Below, in pieces: positions 39,206 through 57,210 of a stretch of DNA of 64,000 bases. Source of the stretch: Thermotoga sp. SG1 (GTDB lineage Bacteria; Thermotogota; Thermotogae; Thermotogales; Thermotogaceae). Location of the stretch: positions 124,001 to 188,000 of the forward strand of contig NZ_LNDD01000004.1 in the NCBI RefSeq assembly GCF_002865985.1, read 5' to 3'. Within the stretch, counting starts at the first letter, position 1. Each line of letters starts with the position of its first letter. The notes beneath the pieces are model-generated. The model saw nothing but the letters and a program-made list of their open reading frames with translations. It was not told where the DNA came from and did no database searches. The position numbers and the translations under genes are program-made.

Positions 39206-39804
39206 GATGGATCTGGATAGCGGTGCTTACGGTTTTTGGGGCAATGCTGGTTGCAAGCGGAGGTTTCGAAAAGATTCTTATAGACCTCAGAGATACCGTG
39301 GTGGAAAATCCCATAACGCAGATATACCTTCTGAACAGGGTGTACGATACGGTGTTTGAGGTGCTCATCTTTTCCCTTGCGGTTCTGGGGGTTTCCTTCC
39401 ACATGTCCTACCTTCCCGCGCCTGAAGAGATAAAGAGCATATCGGACGTTTCCATCAGGATCTTCACACGTTTCATCGCGTTCTTTCTTCTGGTTGGATC
39501 TCTCTACCTTGCGGTCGAGGGCCATGTGAGTCCCGGTGGGGGGTTTTCGGCTGGGGTTGCGGGTGGAACGGCTCTGGCATTGATCGCTCTGGTGGAAGAT
39601 TTCGAGAATTTTGAGAGGAAATTTGAGAGGACAAAGGCGTATTTTCTGGAGAAATTTGTCATGATCGTTTTTCTCTTCCTTGTGATGTTGATATTGCCAG
39701 GAAGGAATCTCATCGTTCCGGCCAACGTGATCGTGTATCTGAAGGTGATGCTGGGAAGCTGGATAGTGGTGTACTACTTCATAAAACACAGAGGACTACT
39801 CTGA
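39202..39804 (+). CDS. mnhB: Mrp/Mnh antiporter subunit B with MbhE-like N-terminus
   Basis: 200 residues, ATGA start at 39202. N-terminal about 70 residues (NPITQIYLLNRVYDTVFEVLIFSLAVLGV) match MbhE, the other small piece homologous to the end of MrpA; the rest is MrpB with GHVSPGGGFSAGVAGGTALAL. So two pieces usually attached to MrpA or separate are fused here. Last gene of the antiporter run; its stop overlaps the convergent pseudopilin gene by 9 nt. Confidence 0.87.
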   Translation: MRWIWIAVLTVFGAMLVASGGFEKILIDLRDTVVENPITQIYLLNRVYDTVFEVLIFSLAVLGVSFHMSYLPAPEEIKSISDVSIRIFTRFIAFFLLVGSLYLAVEGHVSPGGGFSAGVAGGTALALIALVEDFENFERKFERTKAYFLEKFVMIVFLFLVMLILPGRNLIVPANVIVYLKVMLGSWIVVYYFIKHRGLL

Positions 39805-40242
39805 AATTTCAAGATCGTAGATTGTGTCTCCTATCTTCACAGAGAACACCTTTCCATCCTGAAGAAAAACTATCTTCTTTTTCGTTTCGAGCAGATAGTT
39901 GTTTCCCTCACCGCTCAATCCCTTCCGAATGAGTTTGTACACTCCATCATCGAAAACCACGATGTAGGAAATTCTGCCGCTTTTTCCCTTGTGATCCGCG
40001 TTGAAACTCATACAGGATGGAGTAACGGAGGAAGAAGGGGTTTCTGCCCTTTTCACCTCGTACTCGTGTCTCATGAAATCCACGGCGTAGAGTTCATCGA
40101 GAGTTCTGTCCAGATCGTTCACAAGACGGGCCTTTGTTTCTAGGGCAAGGGAGAGAGCGAGAAATCCGATCATTGCGATCGTAAAGAAACAGAGAAGCAA
40201 ACTGAGAACTTCGACGATTGTGTAGCCAAATAAAAGATGCAC
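39796..40242 (-). CDS. Pseudopilin-like protein with start inside the SRP RNA gene
   Basis: 148 residues from GTG 40242 (GTG 40245 also possible). A leader of five or six residues ends LLFG, followed by YTIVEVLSLLLCFFTIAMIGFL: a type IV prepilin signal cleaved after Gly with Glu at +5, then one hydrophobic helix. The rest (FDDGVYKLIRKG, FLQDGKVFSVKIGDTIYDLEI) is a small beta-rich head. The start codons fall in the 3' strand of the SRP RNA terminal helix, preceded by GGTGGG. Translation would require read-through of the SRP transcript. The same frame continues open through the SRP gene, but that is not protein. Confidence 0.65.
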   Translation of the reverse strand: MHLLFGYTIVEVLSLLLCFFTIAMIGFLALSLALETKARLVNDLDRTLDELYAVDFMRHEYEVKRAETPSSSVTPSCMSFNADHKGKSGRISYIVVFDDGVYKLIRKGLSGEGNNYLLETKKKIVFLQDGKVFSVKIGDTIYDLEISE

Positions 40243-40513
40243 CACGCACCCACCGTCGACTTCCCCAGACCGGGGCGTGCGTGGTCGGAGAGCTCCGATC
40301 GGGCACCCCCACGGCACACGGAGACACCTGCTTATGGCTGCTCCCTCCCGGGCCTGACCAGGTTCACAGGGCTCCGTTGCGTGGGACCCGATCTTCATCG
40401 CTTCCGAACCACACCGTTTCCCGACCCGAGGAGCCTCGGGTGGGAGTTCGGCCCCGCGTATGGCGGATTTCGGGTACAGGGGACCGCCAACCCCCCGCCT
40501 AGCGTGGTGCACC
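40237..40513 (-). ncRNA. ffs: Signal recognition particle RNA, long bacterial form
   Basis: On the minus strand GTGAACCTGGTCAGGCCCGG followed by GAGGGAGCAGCCA (within 40325-40367) is the conserved helix 8 with a GGGA tetraloop. The ends pair: GTGCACCACGC at the 5' side with GCGTGGTGCAT at the 3' side. About 275 nt, matching the long RNA with an Alu domain seen in Bacillus and Thermotoga rather than the 114-nt E. coli type. It is much more GC-rich than its surroundings, as expected for a structured RNA in a hyperthermophile. After the closing helix a T-rich stretch (TCTTTTATTT) could act as terminator. Ends are approximate. Confidence 0.95.
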
Positions 40514-40516
40514 ACT

Positions 40517-40545
40517 ATTCTACGACACTTTTCGGGGTATTTCAA
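40517..40545 (-). promoter_or_regulatory. Promoter of the SRP RNA
   Basis: On the minus strand TTGAAA (40545-40540), 17-bp spacer, TAGAAT (40522-40517), 4-8 nt before the predicted RNA 5' end. The -35 begins a few bases after the stop codon of the upstream cupin gene. Confidence 0.8.
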
Positions 40546-40547
40546 GT

Positions 40548-40817
40548 TCAAAACAGATTGTAGTGTTTTCTCACGGGCTCTAGAACCTTCCATCTGCACC
40601 TCAAGCCCTTGGGAAATGTGACGAGATCTCCCTTTTCGATCACGTACTTTTTTCCGTCTCCCGTCGTTACCTCCACTTTCCCCTCCAGGATGTAACAGGT
40701 CTCGTTCGTGTCGTAGTACCAGTCGAACTCGCTGACTTCCTTTTCCCAGATGGGCCACTTTTCCACGCCGAGTTCCTTTAGTTTTTCCGGTGTAGGTTTT
40801 TCTATCTTCACTTCCAT
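40548..40817 (-). CDS. Small cupin protein (DUF861/EutQ-like)
   Basis: 89 residues from ATG 40817, preceded by GGGGGTGATGAAC. One cupin barrel: TCYILEGKVEVTTGDGKKYVIEKGDLVTFPKG. The usual metal-binding histidines of cupins are largely missing (TCYILEG, no HxH), so metal binding or activity is doubtful. Its stop lies a few bases before the SRP promoter. Function unknown. Confidence 0.85.
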   Translation of the reverse strand: MEVKIEKPTPEKLKELGVEKWPIWEKEVSEFDWYYDTNETCYILEGKVEVTTGDGKKYVIEKGDLVTFPKGLRCRWKVLEPVRKHYNLF

Positions 40818-40946
40818 GTTCATCACCCCCGAACAAAGTGTACCAATCTTTATTGTTTTTTCATTAAAGACTCATTGAAGTTTTCCTTGCCTTTCTTCGC
40901 AATTTGATGACCGTGAGTAAGGTTCAAATAGTAGGAGGCGGAACCT

Positions 40947-41876
40947 ATGAGGAAATGGGGATTGGGGGTATTCATCGTTGTTCTTTTCAGTCTGTCTTTT
41001 TCCATCACAACCTACAGATACGACAGTGAAACCGGGAGGTGGGAAAAAGAGGTTCGAGAGGACATACTCATCTTTCCAGCCACCCCAAAGCAGGCCGGAA
41101 GTGTCGTAACGACAGAGTCCTTCCGGGGAAAGGCGCAATGGTATTACTACATGGAGTACACACTGGGAGATGGGGAGCAGATCTTCAGCTTTTGGATGGG
41201 ACAGAGCACAGACGTAGGAACGGTTACCATCTGGAACGATTCTGATTTCTTCTACGTTAAGGTCGAACTGGACGAGGGATGGTTTTTGAAAGAAACACAT
41301 CTCAACGTCCTGATGGATGAACCGGAAGGAAACCAGTCTCCAGGTCAGTTTCCTTTCAAGGAAGAGTTCGATCCCCTCGTGACAGACTACACCTACAAAG
41401 TACCGCTCTCCTTTCTTTTTCAGAAGAGTGTCAGCAAGTTGAAAAAGGCAAGCACCAAGTACTACGTTCTTCTTCACGGTGTGGTGAGTGATGGTAATGA
41501 AGAAGAGACTGCGTGGGGTGGAAGGCGCTCGAACTGTGTTGAGATTTATCTCAGTGGAACGAAGGTCACCTGGTTTGTGAAAAAGCCTGGTGTGTACGTC
41601 TCGAAAGTGCTGGAAGTCAGTGCAAGCAGGGGTCTACACGTCTTCATTTCTCTACCGGATCCTGCAAGTGGCTCAGAAGTTCTGGAGTTGAAGCTGGGAA
41701 CGGGGGAACAGATTCCTTCGGAGTGGTTCGACGAACTTGACTTTGTAGAAAACAGATTCTTCCTGTGGCAGAAAATAACCGTTTCAAGAAATTCCACAGC
41801 AGACACCTATACCAGCGAGGGTGTGATAACCTTCACCATCAACAACTCTAAACTGTACGTCGATACCTCACCATAA
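40947..41876 (+). CDS. Secreted protein, first of three paralogs (long form)
   Basis: 309 residues with a signal peptide (MRKWGLGVFIVVLFSLSFS). Residues about 70-175 resemble a surface-protein module with the pattern VGTVTIWNDSDFFYVKVEL and GWFLKETHLNV. Residues about 195-309 match the two following genes: GTKVTWFVKKPGVYVSKVLEV and a closing RNSTADTYTSEGVITFTI. It lacks the paired Cys of its relatives. ATG 40947 follows GGAGGCG. Probably cell surface or periplasmic; no function known. The 129 nt upstream of the start show no clear promoter. Confidence 0.82.
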   Translation: MRKWGLGVFIVVLFSLSFSITTYRYDSETGRWEKEVREDILIFPATPKQAGSVVTTESFRGKAQWYYYMEYTLGDGEQIFSFWMGQSTDVGTVTIWNDSDFFYVKVELDEGWFLKETHLNVLMDEPEGNQSPGQFPFKEEFDPLVTDYTYKVPLSFLFQKSVSKLKKASTKYYVLLHGVVSDGNEEETAWGGRRSNCVEIYLSGTKVTWFVKKPGVYVSKVLEVSASRGLHVFISLPDPASGSEVLELKLGTGEQIPSEWFDELDFVENRFFLWQKITVSRNSTADTYTSEGVITFTINNSKLYVDTSP

Positions 41877-43265: not shown

Positions 43266-43281
43266 GTTTCTTTAAAAAAAG

Positions 43282-43310
43282 AAGGCGAGGGACCTTCCCT
43301 CGCCTTTTAT
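43282..43310 (+). terminator. Rho-independent terminator
   Basis: AAGGCGAGGG, loop ACCTT, CCCTCGCCTT, then a T-rich tail (43282-43310), 17 nt after the third paralog's stop and just before the next start. The stem is 10 bp and perfect. It separates the paralog unit from the secretin genes, which may be reached by partial read-through. Confidence 0.92.
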
Positions 43311-43326: not shown

Positions 43327-44958
43327 ATGGGGATGAGAAGGGTAGTTTTGATGACCGTGATTTTTGTGAGTGCTGTTTTCTTTGCCCAGGGAATATCCGT
43401 TCGAATGGATCCCATAGTAGTGAGCAAAACCGTAAGTCCGGGAACCAGTTTCAGTTATGAGATCTTTCTGGAGAACGACAGCGAGTTCGATCCCATCACC
43501 TTGAAAGCGATGGTGATGGATGTGACAGAAACGGTGGATGGAGCGTACGATCTGAGAGATCCGGGGAGTACGAAGTACTCGATCGCAAGATGGGTTCGGG
43601 TTGAACCAGACACCATCACCGTACAGCCAAAGGAAACAAAGACCGTCATCGTGACAGTGAACGTACCAAGGGGTGTCTCTGGAGGGCTCTACGGTGCGAT
43701 CGCGTTCGAGATCCAGGGACCTCAAACACCGGAGACCCAAAGACCCGCTGAAGAGGGAGCTTACGGTGAAGTTGAGTTCAAGTACCGAATGGCGAGTTTT
43801 TTAGAGGTTGTTCTCTCCGGTACAAGACAGAGAGTGGAAGCGTTTCCAGCGTATTTCAAGGTAGAGAGATCTGATGACATTCCCTCCATAAGAATGCAAA
43901 TAGGAGATGGCGCTCTCGTTTTCACGCTCGGTGTTCTGAACAGAAGTAACGTTCACATAGTGACGAAGGGAACTCTCACGATAAAGACAAAGGAAGGAAG
44001 AACGATAGCGAAGATGCCTCTTGGTGGCGGAAGGGGTGTGATACTTCCAGAAAGCACCGTCAACATGAGAACGATCACAAGAAGGTTTTTTCCTCCAGGA
44101 GAGTACGTTGCGAGGGCAGTCGTTGACTACGGTGGGAGAAGACCCATAGTGGCAGAAACGCTGTTCACGATCACAACCGAAAGGGTAGAAACAGGGGAGG
44201 AAGAAAGGGAAACAGGTCCAGTTATGATCACAGTGGACCCAGTCAACATTGAGATAAAGGCAGTTCCAGGATCTTACAGGTCCGAGATAGTGAAGATATC
44301 GAATCTCGGAGAGGAAACCCTTCAGGTGAAGGGAAAAATTCTGCCGCTGGCCTACGACCTCTACGGTGATCTCCTCCCAGAGGAAGAAAGAGGCACACCA
44401 CCCGACTGGATCAAACTCACACCATCTTCCTTCACCCTGAAGCCCGGGCAATCTAGAAACGTGCGTATTGCCGTGAGGATACCGAAAGATTTCACGGGAG
44501 GATACTACGCCGATGTGCTCTTCAGAACGGGTGGTTCTCTTCAGGCGGAAACGGGTACAAACCTTCTTGTGTTCTCAGGAAAAGACGAAGATATCACCAG
44601 AGAGGCAAGTGCAGATATTGTGTACGAGATAAAAGAAGATGGCATCTACGCCGACATCGTTTTCGAAAACACGGGAAACTATCATCTCATGCCTACGGTG
44701 ACGTTCGGCTTGAACAGGATCACACCCCAGCAGGTGACCGACGAGGGACTCATAATACCGGAGAAGGTGGAAAGTCTCATTCAAGAGGAAATCAGTTCCA
44801 CTGCCCCCGTTTTGCCCAGAACAAAGAGAATCTTCAGCGTCTTCATACCTGTCATTTTGGAAGAGGGTGAATACGAGTTACTAGCAAGATGTGACTATGG
44901 AAGAAGTCCGATTGTTCTGAAAAAGTCCTTTCATATAGAAGGGAGGAATGGGGAATGA
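43327..44958 (+). CDS. Exported protein with repeated Ig-like (chaperone-like) domains
   Basis: 543 residues from ATG 43327 (ATG 43333 and GTG 43324 also possible). Signal peptide MTVIFVSAVFFAQG. Two similar blocks: RMDPIVVSKTVSPGTSFSYE ... WVRVEPDTITVQPKETKTVIV ... GGLYGAIAFEI, and VDPVNIEIKAVPGSYRSEIV ... WIKLTPSSFTLKPGQSRNVRI ... GGYYADVLF. Each looks like the Ig-like beta-sandwich of PapD-type or DUF916-type proteins that hold secreted subunits. The ATGA overlap with the secretin gene ties it to envelope assembly. Role as chaperone or adhesin is inferred. Confidence 0.78.
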   Translation: MGMRRVVLMTVIFVSAVFFAQGISVRMDPIVVSKTVSPGTSFSYEIFLENDSEFDPITLKAMVMDVTETVDGAYDLRDPGSTKYSIARWVRVEPDTITVQPKETKTVIVTVNVPRGVSGGLYGAIAFEIQGPQTPETQRPAEEGAYGEVEFKYRMASFLEVVLSGTRQRVEAFPAYFKVERSDDIPSIRMQIGDGALVFTLGVLNRSNVHIVTKGTLTIKTKEGRTIAKMPLGGGRGVILPESTVNMRTITRRFFPPGEYVARAVVDYGGRRPIVAETLFTITTERVETGEEERETGPVMITVDPVNIEIKAVPGSYRSEIVKISNLGEETLQVKGKILPLAYDLYGDLLPEEERGTPPDWIKLTPSSFTLKPGQSRNVRIAVRIPKDFTGGYYADVLFRTGGSLQAETGTNLLVFSGKDEDITREASADIVYEIKEDGIYADIVFENTGNYHLMPTVTFGLNRITPQQVTDEGLIIPEKVESLIQEEISSTAPVLPRTKRIFSVFIPVILEEGEYELLARCDYGRSPIVLKKSFHIEGRNGE

Positions 44959-46118
44959 GAAAACTGCTTTTTATCTCTCTTGCCCTGATGACGATTTTGA
45001 TCTTTTCACAGGAGGAACCTCTTGTGAGTAACATATTCCAGGACACCTACATCCTGGATGCCCTGGCGGACATCTCCGCGCAGACCGGAGTTCCGATCAT
45101 AGCCGATACCACCGTAACAGGTTTCATCACGATGGAACTGAACGAAGTTCCCCTGGAACAAGCACTGAAAATGATCCTCATGCCTGGGGGCTATGTATAC
45201 AGGAAAATGGACGGATTTTATTTTGTGGGTTCACCCGATCCAACGAATCCCGCCTTCAGATACTTGGTGGAGACAAAAACATACAAGTTGAAGTACATAA
45301 CGAGTGCCGATGCAGAGGAACTGCTACCACCACTGTACAAAAATTACGTGAAGTTCAACGAAAAGAACAACATGATAACCATCACCGCACCTCAGGAGAT
45401 CATACAGGCGTTCGAAAAGGATCTTAAAAAGATAGACATACCGATACCTCAGGTGAAGGTCAGTGTGATCGTCACAGAAGTTTCAAAGGACTATTCGAAC
45501 GAACTGGGACTGAACAGTCTGGATTACTCCTTTGGAGCCGGACAGGAGTTCAACGAAAACTGGTCGGCTACCCTCGGTCTGGTAACAGGGGTGCTGAACC
45601 TCGAAACAGACGTCTTCGGACAGATTCTGGCCCAATTGAAGCTTCTTGAAGAAGAACAGAAGGCAAAAATCACAGCCGATCCCTGGATCATCGTAAAAAG
45701 CGGGGAAAAAGCCTCTTTGTTTCTGGGAGAAAGGCAGGTGGTTCTTCTCCAGGCTGAAGGGGCAGTGAGCAGGATCGAATCCATAGATGTTGGAGTGAGC
45801 ATCGATATTCAGCCTCGCGTGATGGATGAAGAAGAACTGGAACTTACACTCTCTCCCAGAGTCAGCCACTTTGCAGGAGAAAAACTCGGCACCTTCGCAG
45901 TGAAGCAGAACGAACTTTCCACAACGCTCTTTTTGAAAAACGGTCAGACCGTTGTGATCTCCGGAGCCACCGTAGAAGATAACTCGCAGACCAGTTCCGG
46001 CATACCGATACTGAACAAGATACCACTCATAAGATACCTCTTTGGAGGAACCACGAAAAAAGAGACAGAAAAAGAACTTTACATATTCATAAAGGCAGAA
46101 ATCCAGGGAAGTGAATGA
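44955..46118 (+). CDS. Secretin (GspD/PilQ family)
   Basis: 387 residues, signal peptide to about 19. Residues 22-95 resemble the N0 (STN) domain (TYILDALADISAQTGVPIIAD), 106-165 an N1 domain (TYKLKYITSADAEELLPPL), and 168-385 the secretin core: VKVSVIVTEVSK, DPWIIVKSGEKASLFLGERQ, and IPILNKIPLIRYLFGG, the VPxLGDIPxLGxLF motif. It forms an outer-membrane ring for type II secretion or type IV pili. Fewer N domains than GspD, so a short type. Pseudopilin genes at 39796 and 53872-56633 are possible partners. Confidence 0.92.
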   Translation: MRKLLFISLALMTILIFSQEEPLVSNIFQDTYILDALADISAQTGVPIIADTTVTGFITMELNEVPLEQALKMILMPGGYVYRKMDGFYFVGSPDPTNPAFRYLVETKTYKLKYITSADAEELLPPLYKNYVKFNEKNNMITITAPQEIIQAFEKDLKKIDIPIPQVKVSVIVTEVSKDYSNELGLNSLDYSFGAGQEFNENWSATLGLVTGVLNLETDVFGQILAQLKLLEEEQKAKITADPWIIVKSGEKASLFLGERQVVLLQAEGAVSRIESIDVGVSIDIQPRVMDEEELELTLSPRVSHFAGEKLGTFAVKQNELSTTLFLKNGQTVVISGATVEDNSQTSSGIPILNKIPLIRYLFGGTTKKETEKELYIFIKAEIQGSE

Positions 46119-47218
46119 CCATGAAGTGGTTGTTGTTCCTTCTTACATTTCTTGTCACCACACTGATGGCGGAACCCATGGTCGTTTATCAGTTCATCGC
46201 CGCAGAAGTGAAGATGGCAGAAAGTCAAGACGTTCTGCTGAAAGAACTCCTCGTCACCACCGATGATTCTGGTGAAAAGAAAGTTTCTTACTCTGACAAC
46301 TCGATCGAACTGAAGCTTTTTCCTTTCTCCATAAAAGTGGAACTTCCGGTGATATACGATTCCTACAGGATCCTCTCCAAACCGTGGATCATCACCACCT
46401 TCGGAAAGAACGCAACAATGAGAATAGGAAGGGAAGAGCTCCTCACGGCACAGGGTTTCACCACCACGCAGGAAATCTTGTTCTCTCTGACACCGAATCA
46501 GGTGGATGAGAAAGGAAACGTTCTCTCGGACATAAAAGTAAGATTGAACGATTCTCAACTTCAAACAACCCTGTGGCTTTCTCAGGAAAAGTTCCAGCCG
46601 ATCTTCTACTGTAGATTCAAGACTAATGGTAAGGAGCAAAAAATGATCGTGTTTGCCAGAGCCATAGTCGTTGAGGAACCGCCGAAGGAGAAGGTGTTCG
46701 TGGTAGGAGATGTTTCTGGCCTGAAAGAATTTTTGCCGGAAAAAGAAGAGAAAGAGAAAAATTTCATTTTCCTTTCCTCGTCTCCAGACATCAGAATCAG
46801 TCTCTGGATCAGAAACATTGTTCACATTGACGTCTCCTCTTCGGAGGGAGCTCTTCTGGAGACGAGAATCTTTGGAGAGCAGTTGAGGTTCGGTACCATC
46901 TTCTGGCGTTACAGATGGTGGGGAGTGGGTTTCTCCGATTATTCAAAAGTAGAACCTATGACCCTGTCGGCAGGGGTGTACGCTCTCTTCGACCTTACAA
47001 AGTTCTCTGGAATTCTCTGGTGGGGTAGGGGGGATCTGAGACTCGGCAAGTTCTCTGTGAGTCTCTCTTTCAGGAGTCACTGGACACTCGGGGAAACGTC
47101 ACAGGATTTGATCCTCAGCGGTGGCTACGACATCAATGAACACGTAACGATCGTGCTGGGGGTAACTTACGATTTCTCAAAGTACAAAGTGTTCATCGGG
47201 GTAGAGCTTTTGTTTTAG
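46115..47218 (+). CDS. Secretin-like domain fused to probable outer-membrane barrel
   Basis: 367 residues, ATGA start, signal peptide to about 19. Residues 84-190 echo the secretin core of the neighbour: YRILSKPWIITTFGKNATMRIGREELL compares with ADPWIIVKSGEKASLFLGE, and FKTNGKEQKMIVFARAIVVEE with LKNGQTVVISGATVED. A linker (190-225) rich in Lys/Glu follows. From about 225 the protein is alternating amphipathic strands (GTIFWRYRWWGVGF, TLSAGVYALFDL, FSVSLSFRSHW) ending in Phe, an outer-membrane beta-signal. No known protein recognised with this plan. Probably a partner of the secretin. Confidence 0.7.
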   Translation: MTMKWLLFLLTFLVTTLMAEPMVVYQFIAAEVKMAESQDVLLKELLVTTDDSGEKKVSYSDNSIELKLFPFSIKVELPVIYDSYRILSKPWIITTFGKNATMRIGREELLTAQGFTTTQEILFSLTPNQVDEKGNVLSDIKVRLNDSQLQTTLWLSQEKFQPIFYCRFKTNGKEQKMIVFARAIVVEEPPKEKVFVVGDVSGLKEFLPEKEEKEKNFIFLSSSPDIRISLWIRNIVHIDVSSSEGALLETRIFGEQLRFGTIFWRYRWWGVGFSDYSKVEPMTLSAGVYALFDLTKFSGILWWGRGDLRLGKFSVSLSFRSHWTLGETSQDLILSGGYDINEHVTIVLGVTYDFSKYKVFIGVELLF

Positions 47219-48264
47219 AGAACGGTGTAGTGATCCTTCTCTATCCCCATTTCTCCCAATACATTCTTTACACGACTTTCTACAGTTGGACGCTGCTGTT
47301 CCGGGCAGTGAACAAGAATGCGAATTGACTCGTTCGAGAAGGTAATCACATCTCCCCTCCGGAACAGCGGCGCTATTTTTTGAGCGATCGTTTCAGGATC
47401 GACATCTTTTCGTTTGAACACCACCTCAAGAAGAACAAAGGTTTTCTTCCTCTTCCTGGACTCAAGGAAGAGTATTTTCTCAAACAGCTTCTCATCTATA
47501 ACTACTGCCTTGTTTCCGTTCATCAGAAAATCTGAGCCTTTGTTCGAAATAAGATCACTGAATTTCAAGCGAGGTTTGGTTCCTATCTCTTCAAGATGAT
47601 TCGACAGTTTGTCATACATGCGCTTTGCCCTTGTGATATCTCCTTTCTTCAGGAGGATCTCCACCGCTTTGTAGTACATACTTTCATCGTAAGGTTCCCT
47701 CTGAACGTAGGATGTCACCATTTCGAAAGCAGATTCGTAGTCTTTTCTCGACAAGTACAGCTCAAACAGTTCTTTCAAAACATCCGAATACCATGATTCG
47801 TATATTTCCCTGGTCTCCTGGACCCATTCTTCAAGGGCATCTTCAACTAGAAAAGGCCCTGCATAGATCTCGAACATCTTCTTCAGAAGTTTTTCTCGTT
47901 CATCGGCCGATATTTTTCCCATCAATTTTCTGTGGCATTCTTCGAAGATATCTGCATCCACAACGATATCGTCGCCGGGCACAAAACAGCATATGTTCCC
48001 TCTGACAAAGAGGTGTTCATTCGTTATACCGACTGTCTTTCTGATCAGATGGAGTGTGGTGTTCAGGTTAGATTTTGCGAATTTTTCTTCCATCCCTTCC
48101 CAGAAAAGACTGTAGAGCTCTTCAACGGGTACTTCTTCGTTTCTCCTAAAAACCAGATATCTGAACAGTGAGAACGCTTTCTGCGAAGGCCAATCCTTGT
48201 TGTTTATAACATCGCCTTCTCTGACGATTTTCGTCCCACCAAAGGTTTTCACGAAAATACTCAT
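47215..48264 (-). CDS. BTAD-domain (SARP-like) transcriptional regulator
   Basis: 349 residues from ATG 48264 (GGGAG 9 nt upstream; an ATG at 48273 abuts GGGAG). Residues 1-95 form an OmpR-like winged helix (SLFRYLVFRRNEEVPVEELYSLFW ... LNTTLHLIRKTVG). About 100-240 are the bacterial transcriptional activation domain, a TPR-like helical bundle (REKLLKKMFEIYAGPFLVEDA, LKELFELYLSRKDYESAFEMVTSYVQREPYDESMYY). The last 100 residues are not recognised. It converges on the envelope cluster and is divergent from the ABC importer, so it may control either. Overlaps the barrel gene's stop by 4 nt. Confidence 0.85.
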   Translation of the reverse strand: MSIFVKTFGGTKIVREGDVINNKDWPSQKAFSLFRYLVFRRNEEVPVEELYSLFWEGMEEKFAKSNLNTTLHLIRKTVGITNEHLFVRGNICCFVPGDDIVVDADIFEECHRKLMGKISADEREKLLKKMFEIYAGPFLVEDALEEWVQETREIYESWYSDVLKELFELYLSRKDYESAFEMVTSYVQREPYDESMYYKAVEILLKKGDITRAKRMYDKLSNHLEEIGTKPRLKFSDLISNKGSDFLMNGNKAVVIDEKLFEKILFLESRKRKKTFVLLEVVFKRKDVDPETIAQKIAPLFRRGDVITFSNESIRILVHCPEQQRPTVESRVKNVLGEMGIEKDHYTVL

Positions 48265-48404
48265 AATCCCCATCTCCCATCGCCTTCGAATTTTAAAAAA
48301 ATTTGAATCTTTTTAGTATTATAGCACTATTTTTTTATGAAAATAGACTGAAAATTGAGTGAAAAAATAGAGAAAAATCATAACAATAATTTGTTAATGT
48401 ATCC

Positions 48405-53871: not shown

Positions 53872-54276
53872 TTAGTCCCCAATTATAACAATTCTATCTA
53901 TGACGTTGTTTTCGTCTATTTTTATCTTCAGAGTGATTTTTTTGTACTCTATATCACTATCACTTGCTAATGGAACATCTTCAACGTTTGAACCGTTTGG
54001 ATCAACGTAGGGGAAAGGAGGGTTCTGATCATTCCACCTGTCTTTCCAGAATTCTCTGTTTATCTCACTGTACACGCTTTGATCTATTTCATGTCCTGAT
54101 CTGTATTTGGACAGAAAATCATACGCAAAGTTCGTAAGAAGAAACACCTCTGTGGATTTTTCAGTAAAGGCCACATTTTTTGTCACCACAAGAACGATTG
54201 CCGTGAATATTGAAACAACCAGGAGTATAAGAATCAAACTGATAAGTGTTTCTATTATGAGACTTCCTCTCCTCAT
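53872..54276 (-). CDS. Pseudopilin-like protein
   Basis: 134 residues. N-terminus MRRGSLIIETLISLILILLVVSIFTAIVLVV: prepilin cleavage after Gly4, Glu at +5 (SLIIE), and one long hydrophobic helix. The head contains IEYKKITLKIKIDENNVIDRIVII. Start ATG 54276 is one base after the stop of the preceding gene. Minor pseudopilin of a type II secretion or type IV pilus-like machine. Confidence 0.85.
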   Translation of the reverse strand: MRRGSLIIETLISLILILLVVSIFTAIVLVVTKNVAFTEKSTEVFLLTNFAYDFLSKYRSGHEIDQSVYSEINREFWKDRWNDQNPPFPYVDPNGSNVEDVPLASDSDIEYKKITLKIKIDENNVIDRIVIIGD

Positions 54277-54277
54277 C

Positions 54278-56110
54278 TCAATACACCTCTCTCACGTAGC
54301 GAATCATTGATTGTTTTTCCACTGTGGGGGTACCAAATATAGCAAGGCCTTTCAGTATTCTCCAGTCGTATATGTAGTTTTTTCTATAGCCTGTTCTGAT
54401 AACAGGTGTACCATTCCAAGACCACCTGAAAGTTCCCACCGGTCCTCTGACGTACTGCATGAGAGAGCCGAAAATGGTGAGTTCTCCTTTGGATTTTCCT
54501 TCGTTATAGCCTTCCACATAGAAACTTCCATCGAAGGCGTATATACTGGCAAAGATCTTCATGTTGGGTCTTTTTTCTTTCACCACCACGTCGTTGAACG
54601 CAACCAGGTTGAGAAAGTCATCAGACTCGTGGTTTTTGATCATTTCCGCGTATTCTTCCGTCTTGACGTTCCCATTATCATCGAGAGGTCTTATCTCAAC
54701 TTTAGCAACTTTTTCATCGGAATTTCCTTTTATCCCCTGTAGATCGGCGATCTTTTCTAGAACCCCTCTGTAATCGTTGTAGATGATGTGATCTTCTATG
54801 TAGATATTCTTTGCAACAATGGTGTACTTTCCATCCACGAACATGGGTTTTCCATCACCACTCATGTTTCTCAAATAGATGTCACTGTCTGTTTTTATCA
54901 CACCGTTGAAGTATATATCGTACTCGTTTCTGTCGAGGCCAAGAAGTTCTCTTGCTTTATCTCCTTGAATGACAAGATGATACTTATCGCTGTTTGGTAC
55001 TTGTTTGAGGTGGAAGAGGTTAGCTTCTTTTTCCTCACTTTCCCCAATAAAATGCCAATCCTGCATATTATTGCTTACATATTCCCTGTATACTTCCTTA
55101 TATTTCACTTTTACCAAATAATCGTTTTGGCTATTACCTCTTGGTGTATTGAATTCTATGATATAAATCGGTTCGAGTTGCTTTTTGTAGAATTTCCATT
55201 CTGTTTTATTCCACCTTGTCGAGCCCTTGTTTTCATCGAAATCGTATTCCACGATCTTTGACGAAGGAAGCTCTATTCCTACCGGTTCAGTCGAGTTTAC
55301 AACCTCGCTTGCAGGTTTTACGATCTTTTCGATTTCTCTTGCGTAATAGTCTTTTATCTTACTCATGTTGTATTTTTCTATGTCCTCTTCTGTCAAGTAC
55401 TTTGGAGGAGGATTCTCGTATCTTGGACCATTTCCTGCTTCGATATCGATACCCTTGAACTCCACACTTGCCTTGAACAGTGGCTCTCCTTCCACATGTA
55501 TCACATCGTTCGACCTGAAAGGACCATCTATGGTATCCTGAGTGATGAAGTATATCTTACCACCACCTGGTCTTGTCTCTTTTTCTGTAAAATACGCGTA
55601 CTTGTTCAAAAAATCTGAGGATAGAACGGCGTATTTGTAAACCACAGCCTTTCCCACCTGAGCTCTCACAACGAGCAAAACATAGAAGGGAGTATCCTTG
55701 AAGGGGAAAACAACAGCGTAGAAACCGGAAAATCCAAGTTTCGATGCTTCACCGGTAAAATCGCTGTCTGAAGAAAGATCGAAGTGTTTTTCTGTATCCA
55801 ATAGCGAGAACGTTTCCTTCCATGCTTCACCGTCCGATTGGGCAAAAACCCTTTTTTTGAAGTCTTCAAACCAAGTCACGTTTTCGGTGGACCAGTTGGT
55901 AATACTCACGCCAAGAAAACCGAAATACTTCTTCAAGCAAGCAACTCCCAGATTCAGAATGTTGGAGGCTTTGTAGGTAGCTTCAAGCCTCTGAGAAGTT
56001 ATCTGTACGTTTTCAGCGTACTGCCTGAACGCGAAGAACACAGACACTCCAAAAATAGAAATAATCAGAAGTATCACCATAGTTGTTACCAGAATAGAAC
56101 CGTTCCTCAC
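54278..56110 (-). CDS. Large PilX-like exported protein
   Basis: 610 residues from GTG 56110, after GAGGTGG. MRNGSILVTTMVILLIISIFGVSVFFAFRQYAENVQ is like the N-terminus of PilX-type minor pilins (Gly before a hydrophobic helix; Glu not at +5). The 560-residue extracytoplasmic part contains YFITQDTIDGPFRSNDVIHVEGEP and KTDSDIYLRNM, similar to polymer-forming/beta-helix stretches (DGPFRSND, IYIEDHIIYND, TIFGSLMQYVRGPVG). It is flanked by pseudopilin genes. Possibly a tip or scaffold subunit. Confidence 0.75.
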   Translation of the reverse strand: MRNGSILVTTMVILLIISIFGVSVFFAFRQYAENVQITSQRLEATYKASNILNLGVACLKKYFGFLGVSITNWSTENVTWFEDFKKRVFAQSDGEAWKETFSLLDTEKHFDLSSDSDFTGEASKLGFSGFYAVVFPFKDTPFYVLLVVRAQVGKAVVYKYAVLSSDFLNKYAYFTEKETRPGGGKIYFITQDTIDGPFRSNDVIHVEGEPLFKASVEFKGIDIEAGNGPRYENPPPKYLTEEDIEKYNMSKIKDYYAREIEKIVKPASEVVNSTEPVGIELPSSKIVEYDFDENKGSTRWNKTEWKFYKKQLEPIYIIEFNTPRGNSQNDYLVKVKYKEVYREYVSNNMQDWHFIGESEEKEANLFHLKQVPNSDKYHLVIQGDKARELLGLDRNEYDIYFNGVIKTDSDIYLRNMSGDGKPMFVDGKYTIVAKNIYIEDHIIYNDYRGVLEKIADLQGIKGNSDEKVAKVEIRPLDDNGNVKTEEYAEMIKNHESDDFLNLVAFNDVVVKEKRPNMKIFASIYAFDGSFYVEGYNEGKSKGELTIFGSLMQYVRGPVGTFRWSWNGTPVIRTGYRKNYIYDWRILKGLAIFGTPTVEKQSMIRYVREVY

Positions 56111-56120
56111 AGAAACCACC

Positions 56121-56633
56121 TCACTCCAGGTTTGAAAGAGCAATACTTATAAAATAAGTTCTTTCGATGCTGTTCTTTTTCTTTCCTATAGTGAAAGAGA
56201 TCGTACCAGGGCTGACAAAAAATGTGCAGGTGGAAATATCCGATACTAGGATTTTGGTTTTTTCGAGGATCAAATCGTTATCAGGATTTTTCCGATAGAT
56301 TTGAAGTTCGATATCGGGTCTATTGAATACGATGACATAGAGATAATCCTGAAAACCGTAATCTTCTCCGGCAAATGGTACACTCACCTTGAAGGAGATT
56401 CTTGCAGGATCGCTCGGATCGAAAGACACCTCATCTGCCTTCGGTCCTGCTTTTATGATCTCTTTTCTCAACTCCATGGCTGCTTTCAAAAGGTCATCAG
56501 CCAGCTCAATTGTGGTCAGAGACTGAGCGGAAACAATTGTCACCCTTGTTGCTATTCCCAAAATCAAAAGTACTGTTATGAGGAGAACAACCATTGTAAT
56601 TAGCACCTCTGTGATGGTGAACCCATTCCTCAT
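56121..56633 (-). CDS. Type IV prepilin-like protein
   Basis: 170 residues from ATG 56633, after GGAGGTGAAACA. MRNGFTITEVLITMVVLLITVLLILGIATR: canonical prepilin site (cleaved after Gly4, FTITE with Glu at +5). PulG/GspJ-like head. First gene of the minus-strand set leading to flaG and fliD. The frame upstream of 56633 is noncoding. Confidence 0.9.
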   Translation of the reverse strand: MRNGFTITEVLITMVVLLITVLLILGIATRVTIVSAQSLTTIELADDLLKAAMELRKEIIKAGPKADEVSFDPSDPARISFKVSVPFAGEDYGFQDYLYVIVFNRPDIELQIYRKNPDNDLILEKTKILVSDISTCTFFVSPGTISFTIGKKKNSIERTYFISIALSNLE

Positions 56634-56668
56634 TGTTTCACCTCCACATGTAATTGTTACCAGAAAAG

Positions 56669-56697
56669 TGTGGCAAAAATGTGGCAAGTGATAGAAT
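56669..56697 (+). promoter_or_regulatory. Ferritin promoter with direct repeat
   Basis: TGTGGCAA occurs at 56669-56676 and 56680-56687, 11 bp apart (one helix turn), followed by an extended -10 (TGATAGAAT, hexamer 56692-56697). There is no good -35, so an activator or repressor bound to the repeats may decide expression. Confidence 0.6.
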
Positions 56698-56718
56698 CGT
56701 ATACAGGGAGGTGAAACG

Positions 56719-57210
56719 ATGGTTATTTCGGAAAAAGTGAGAAAAGCCCTTAACAAACAACTGAACAGGGAGATCTACTCTTCTTATCTGTACCTTTCCA
56801 TGGCCACCTACTTCGATGCAGAAGGCTTCAAAGGTTTCGCACACTGGATGAAAAAGCAGGCACAAGAAGAGCTCACTCACGCTATGAAGTTCTACGAATA
56901 CATCTACGACAGAGGTGGAAAGGTGGAACTCGAGGCAATAGAGAAACCCCCATCAACATGGAACGACATAAAAGATGCGTTCGAAGCAGCCCTGAAGCAC
57001 GAAGAATTAGTCACCCAATCGATCTACGAAATACTGGAACTTGCCTCGGAAGAGAAAGATCACGCCACCGTGAGTTTTCTCAAATGGTTCGTCGATGAAC
57101 AGGTGGAAGAAGAGGAACAAGTGAGGGAGATACTGGATCTTCTGGAAAAAGCAAACGGTCAAATGTCCGTGATCTTTCAACTGGACAGATACCTTGGACA
57201 GAGGGAATGA
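56719..57210 (+). CDS. ftn: Ferritin (non-heme, FtnA type)
   Basis: 163 residues. Four-helix bundle iron-storage protein. Ferroxidase-site residues visible: NREIYSSYLYL (Glu17), QAQEELTHAMKFYEY (Glu50, His53), HEELVTQSIYEI (Glu94) and VDEQVEEEEQV. No signal peptide. ATG 56719 after GGGAGGTGAAACG. A terminator follows directly. Confidence 0.95.
   Translation: MVISEKVRKALNKQLNREIYSSYLYLSMATYFDAEGFKGFAHWMKKQAQEELTHAMKFYEYIYDRGGKVELEAIEKPPSTWNDIKDAFEAALKHEELVTQSIYEILELASEEKDHATVSFLKWFVDEQVEEEEQVREILDLLEKANGQMSVIFQLDRYLGQRE

Follow-up and report, generated by a model that had tools for sequence, protein, structure and literature searches.

A conserved cluster in Thermotogota pairing a pilus-type chaperone candidate with a short secretin: a proposed outer-membrane export pathway for pilin-like subunits

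A 64,000-nucleotide stretch of the genome of Thermotoga sp. SG1, referred to here as the window, contains a six-gene cluster starting at position 40947, in which the genes of three paralogous secreted proteins (P0004–P0006) precede those of an immunoglobulin (Ig)-module protein (P0001), a short secretin (P0002) and a secretin-like protein with a barrel-like C-terminus (P0003). The reading that we favour, with moderate confidence, is that this cluster encodes an outer-membrane export or assembly pathway for pilin-like β-sandwich subunits, which may be described as a chaperone–secretin pathway. A survey of secretion systems published in 2016 found that, of all diderm clades, the Thermotogae alone had none of the systems sought, among which the chaperone–usher pathway was not included, and suggested that systems adapted to the toga may exist (PMC4793230). 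The cluster, the chaperone profile of which matches 62 of 103 sampled Thermotogota genomes in 25 of 38 genera, provides a concrete and testable candidate secretion system for this clade. If the reading is correct, a secretin would operate in the absence of the inner-membrane machine that normally goes with it, and the WxLIP surface proteins would be linked with pilus chaperones.

Gene content and gene order in the cluster, together with the domain assignments and fold resemblances described below, are supported by sequence or modelling. All six genes lie on the forward strand, the three upstream of P0001 being additional to those covered by the original prediction. P0004 (40947–41876; 309 amino acids), P0005 (41900–42577; 225 amino acids) and P0006 (42621–43265; 214 amino acids) are spaced by gaps of 23–61 bp and are followed by P0001 (43327–44958; 543 amino acids), P0002 (44955–46118; 387 amino acids) and P0003 (46115–47218; 367 amino acids). 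The last three reading frames are all open and are joined, as the original prediction had described, by ATGA overlaps, with 4-bp start/stop overlaps at 44955 and 46115. Its description of an envelope export set composed of an Ig-like chaperone, a short secretin and a hybrid of secretin core and barrel was likewise borne out by the domain assignments of P0001–P0003, and the gene content confirmed that the cluster holds neither an ATPase nor an inner-membrane gene: no dedicated type II/IV ATPase, inner-membrane platform or pilin is encoded alongside P0002, such genes being located elsewhere in the genome. A cupin gene at 40548–40826 is presumably the counterpart of TM1112 of T. maritima. From this gene and from the ABC-transporter genes after 48564, the cluster is the counterpart of T. 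maritima TM1113–TM1118, a placement with which the published secretin label of TM1117 agrees (PMC5637354). In a literature search the cluster was found to be undescribed except for the homology label of its secretin as PilQ (PMC5637354), and the main text of the toga paper does not name TM1113–TM1116.

The arrangement is conserved. Approximately 40 loci were read from the 103 Thermotogota genomes. Of the 39 with a short secretin, 36 have the chaperone gene immediately 5′ of the secretin gene; of the other three, L045 begins at a contig start, and L046 and L047 show relocations over a few kilobases. A further gene follows 3′ of the secretin gene in every one of the 39 loci, and in 31 of them the encoded protein has an aromatic last residue. 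Moreover, by our reading, the short secretin is adjacent in each of the 57 genomes with a strong chaperone match. The gene order thus recurs in dozens of Thermotogota loci and hence is not a product of chance; the genes stay together in relatives rather than showing the conserved separation that the original prediction had named as a refutation. One Thermotoga genome (G092) carries the complete set twice; the second copy (L048, 7430–12444) is divergent, and its long third gene has secretin N domains.

P0001, the proposed subunit chaperone, is a secreted protein that matches two Pfam families above their cut-offs, WxLIP_PGBD (6.2e-8) and fn3_5 (5.4e-8). Its AlphaFold2 model (pLDDT 86.8) is all-β after the signal peptide, and the modelled architecture is read as four Ig-type domains arranged as a tandem of two two-domain modules. 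The first module resembles WxLIP: a profile built from 39 homologues aligned with Enterococcus faecium WxLIP1 (9i1y) at an E value of 1.3e-11 across both domains, and the best fold match of residues 22–284 was WxLIP bound to WxL (9i25_C; Z 15.5, root-mean-square deviation 5.8, 232 residues). The WxLIP PGBD (DUF916) is recognized by Pfam in P0001 and in 22 of the 39 family members, and the HBD (DUF3324) in only two of the 39, profile and structure nevertheless covering both domains. The second module (residues 299–531) is closest to the PapD-type chaperone CsuC (Z 14.3, root-mean-square deviation 3.5, 168 residues), which is followed by CfaA, SfaE, FimC and Caf1M among dozens of chaperones. The identification of P0001 as an Ig-like chaperone therefore stands, in that the protein is Ig-like by Pfam and its C-terminal half has the two-Ig-domain fold of the PapD family, with no Pfam PapD match. 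In addition, the first domain contains a loop of 11–23 residues between its last two strands in all 39 members, where the model confidence is low, and the strand after this loop has conserved alternating hydrophobic positions, as in donor strands. Pilus chaperones rely on an interstrand loop and an alternating-hydrophobic last strand of this kind when they donate a strand. For WxLIP, a strand inserted into the WxL partner was predicted (PMC10599100).

P0004, P0005 and P0006 are homologous in alignment, all three have signal peptides, a short conserved motif is common to their mature N-termini, and within the genome the family is confined to this cluster. P0005 and its paralogue P0006 are the small members, whereas in the large P0004 the C-terminal domain common to all three is preceded by an additional N-terminal domain; P0004 is a probable substrate or tip/adhesin-like subunit. 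The AlphaFold2 model of P0005 (pLDDT 82.3) contains a predicted β-sandwich at residues ∼69–202, the best fold match of which was the pilin CsuA/B (VIA Z 8.4, 2.7 Å over 115 residues), followed by CfaE, FimG, CfaB and FimA; nearly all of its best 50 structural matches are chaperone–usher pilins. The Sulfolobus 0406 filament, the Pyrodictium cannulae and TasA (the last by Foldseek) were also matched, and these too polymerize by strand exchange. Membership of the SCPU/Csu pilins by sequence was tried and dropped, as no match was obtained. The extra domain of P0004 (residues ∼60–195) carries conserved motifs of the type ‘ETHL...PGQFPYK...ETAWGG’ and has no Pfam or NCBIfam match; similar motifs are present in secreted proteins of other phyla.

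These components invite comparison with the archaic chaperone–usher systems represented by the Csu pili of Acinetobacter. Common to both are the PapD-type two-domain fold seen in the C-terminal half of P0001, the pilin-like fold of P0005, and the clustering of subunit and chaperone genes, the products of which all carry Sec signal peptides. By contrast, the Thermotoga chaperone is a two-module tandem, no similarity between the sequences of its candidate subunits and those of known pilins is detectable, and the outer-membrane position is taken by a secretin and a secretin/barrel hybrid. The usher family (PF00577) was not detected anywhere in the genome, the Escherichia coli control being positive, and because an usher was searched for and not found, the proposed pathway, although it would operate in a similar way, is not placed within the chaperone–usher class.

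The strongest rival to the chaperone–secretin reading is a structural, WxLIP-like role for P0001, in which it would travel with P0004–P0006 or anchor them at the peptidoglycan or cell surface, the secretin being merely the exit. WxLIP is indeed the strongest sequence match of P0001, and the WxL clusters of Gram-positive bacteria also hold one WxLIP together with small and large secreted partners (PMC10599100), as do P0005/P0006 and P0004 here. However, the Thermotoga set differs from these clusters in its diderm host and in its secretin; the P0001 model lacks the C-terminal transmembrane helix by which WxLIP is anchored; and P0001 has two modules, the second of which is nearer to CsuC, whereas WxLIP has one. 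The WxL family of Pfam does not match P0004–P0006; the VIA list for P0005 contains no WxL structure either, which excludes nothing. A complex of this kind is regarded as rather unlikely.

Relatives of P0001 were also encountered outside the cluster type described here. Two Deinococcus plasmids, NZ_CP034185.1 (L074, 6910–12656) and NZ_CP140100.1 (L075, 6869–12554), encode a single-module relative with 24% and 22% identity, respectively, which sits between small secreted proteins and a protein of 1,058–1,090 amino acids. The latter begins with an Ig-like part, continues with a long barrel-like stretch and also has a carboxypeptidase-regulatory-like domain; it is possibly an usher-like partner missed by the usher model of Pfam. 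Single-module relatives of ∼280 amino acids occur in three genomes (G024, G027 and G029) for which the search gave no short secretin; in two cases the match contains a stop codon. No relative of P0001 was found in the viral contigs searched.

P0002 matches the secretin core (PF00263) at 6.5e-38 and Secretin_N (PF03958) at 1.7e-7, with a weak match to STN (PF07660), and thus has the core and the N-terminal ring domains of the secretin superfamily, in agreement with its earlier designation as a short secretin. Its PDB matches included GspD, PilQ and, from a phage, the virion export protein 7ofh. With an N0-like STN domain, a single N1-like domain and the core, P0002 is, as judged from its sequence, a minimal secretin with an architecture like that of pIV or HofQ, and is predicted to form an outer-membrane ring. 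It is similar in length to these short secretins (pIV of filamentous phages and HofQ) but differs from them in being encoded with a chaperone and secreted β-sandwich proteins and in being followed by a secretin-core/barrel paralogue. With GspD and PilQ of type II secretion and the type IV pilus it has the secretin core in common; unlike theirs, its cluster has no inner-membrane genes, and a separate large secretin is encoded near the pilus genes.

This large protein, the second secretin of the genome, has ∼1,280 amino acids and is encoded ∼6 kb from a PilC-type gene of the type IV pilus/type II machinery. It bears directly on the original prediction of a partial, divided type II/IV secretion system, in which P0002 would be an alternative outer-membrane channel, and genes at other loci would supply its driving ATPase, that of the type IV pilus, and the inner-membrane proteins. 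Genes of the type II/IV ATPase family and PilC-type genes do exist elsewhere in the genome, and PilQ is the best-scoring NCBIfam model for P0002, although far below its cut-off (125 of 284 bits), with HofQ also among the matches. Against this, the large secretin belongs to the pilus operon, and the constant neighbours of the short secretin are the chaperone and secreted proteins. Furthermore, PilC-type genes are present in 101 of the 103 genomes, including ∼40 that lack the chaperone–secretin set. No genome showed the set without PilC-type genes, so that the system may depend on the pilus machinery. As a secretin of their own accompanies the pilus genes, and the short secretin is linked to the chaperone instead, the divided system was abandoned as the main explanation and is now considered improbable; on its gene content, the cluster is not a type II/IV system.

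An even less probable alternative is that P0002 is a PilQ for DNA uptake in natural competence. The genome paper on Thermotoga sp. RQ7 gives TM1117, the T. maritima counterpart, and TM0088 as pilQ candidates (PMC5637354), an assignment that is based on homology only; it is the large secretin that sits near the pilus genes, and the competence model leaves the chaperone and the secreted-protein genes without a role.

The divided system had also drawn on pseudopilins proposed at 39796 and at 53872–56633. The scores of these genes with pilin models are weak, unrelated genes lie between them and the cluster, and they are not found beside the locus in the other genera read. On the reverse strand of the window, at 53872–56756, three genes with weak prepilin-like N-termini lie beside FliD/FlaG-like flagellar genes. 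Also on the reverse strand, at 40242–40507, is a bacterial large signal recognition particle (SRP) RNA (RF01854, 192.5 bits), which overlaps the long open reading frame at 39796–40836; the pilin-like gene there must therefore start at ∼40242.

P0003 has no family match in Pfam or NCBIfam, and Pfam found a secretin in none of its 20 homologues. In a separate comparison of family profiles by hhalign, residues 22–167 of the P0003 family aligned to the P0002-family secretin core with a probability of 95.9% and an E value of 5e-9, and the core assignment is taken from this comparison; an iterated P0003 profile drifted into true secretins and was not relied on. The C-terminal segment, residues ∼220–367, is outer-membrane-barrel-like: 18 of the 20 homologues end in Phe, Trp or Tyr, and 19 have hydrophobic residues at positions −3 and −5, whereas a terminal Phe, Trp or Tyr is found in 67 of 437 neighbouring proteins and in none of 39 short secretins. 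The core alignment and the aromatic ending uphold the earlier view of P0003 as a secretin-core segment joined to a barrel with a terminal Phe. Only this core-like segment is present, however, and not the complete core with N domains. In several Thermotogota families a longer third gene occupies the position of P0003 and carries secretin N domains (STN and Secretin_N/N1), and judging from these sequences P0003 probably represents a shortened version of a second secretin-like protein that ends in a barrel. Since a direct comparison of the profiles of the two versions gave an alignment in the signal-peptide region only, this reading is based on position and on the secretin similarity of each version by itself. 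A peptide-pattern search in other species did not find relatives of P0003.

From these components we infer strand donation, export through P0002, fibre formation, a role for P0003 and a surface location of the product, as follows. P0004–P0006 would reach the periplasm by Sec, where P0001 would capture them, most likely by donating a strand that fills an incomplete Ig-type fold. The P0002 secretin ring in the outer membrane would serve as the exit channel, taking the place of the usher, and P0003 may be an outer-membrane partner of this ring, acting as an assembly factor, an anchor or an exit-side partner. The product would be assembled outside the cell as a surface fibre or coat of P0005 and P0006, with P0004 as a special subunit.

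Several observations weigh against this pathway. To our knowledge, no secretin has been described in the role of an usher. The fold match of P0005 is modest, with a best Foldseek E value of 1.3e-3 and a VIA Z of 8.4, where values up to 8 can reflect a common arrangement, and sequence searches with P0004–P0006 gave no match to Pfam pilin, SCPU or WxL families. The small secreted proteins encoded at this position in other families of the Thermotogota show no detectable homology to P0004–P0006; profile comparisons of the subunit families across Thermotogota gave similarity in the signal peptide only, or nothing convincing. Finally, type IV pilus genes are retained wherever the short secretin occurs, and the pilus machinery may thus help.

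A broader proposal, which we put forward more tentatively than the pathway itself and would give somewhat less than an even chance, is that the cluster represents a separate class of outer-membrane machine. A tandem PapD/WxLIP-type chaperone would deliver strand-exchange subunits to a ring of secretins that has a secretin/barrel protein as its partner, building surface fibres of Thermotogota without an usher, an ATPase or type II machinery, and the WxLIP proteins and the chaperones of chaperone–usher systems would descend from one ancestral function.

The subunit genes are separated from the chaperone gene by a hairpin with a 13-bp stem and a T-rich tail (43280–43308, forward strand; −23.5 kcal/mol, z −4.2), a probable attenuating terminator. 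Of 27 loci, 23 have a comparable hairpin ahead of the chaperone gene, compared with 37 of 117 same-strand control gaps from the same loci; the p-value of 4e-7 overstates this enrichment, because related loci are not independent. Such a hairpin would suit strong expression of the subunits and weaker expression of the machinery.

Convergent with P0003, a gene on the reverse strand (47215–48273) encodes a transcriptional regulator of the BTAD (SARP) type (Pfam BTAD, 2.9e-9), which is a candidate regulator of the cluster. In several further genera, homologues of the regulator lie next to this cluster, and it is an unusual kind of regulator to travel with an envelope cluster.

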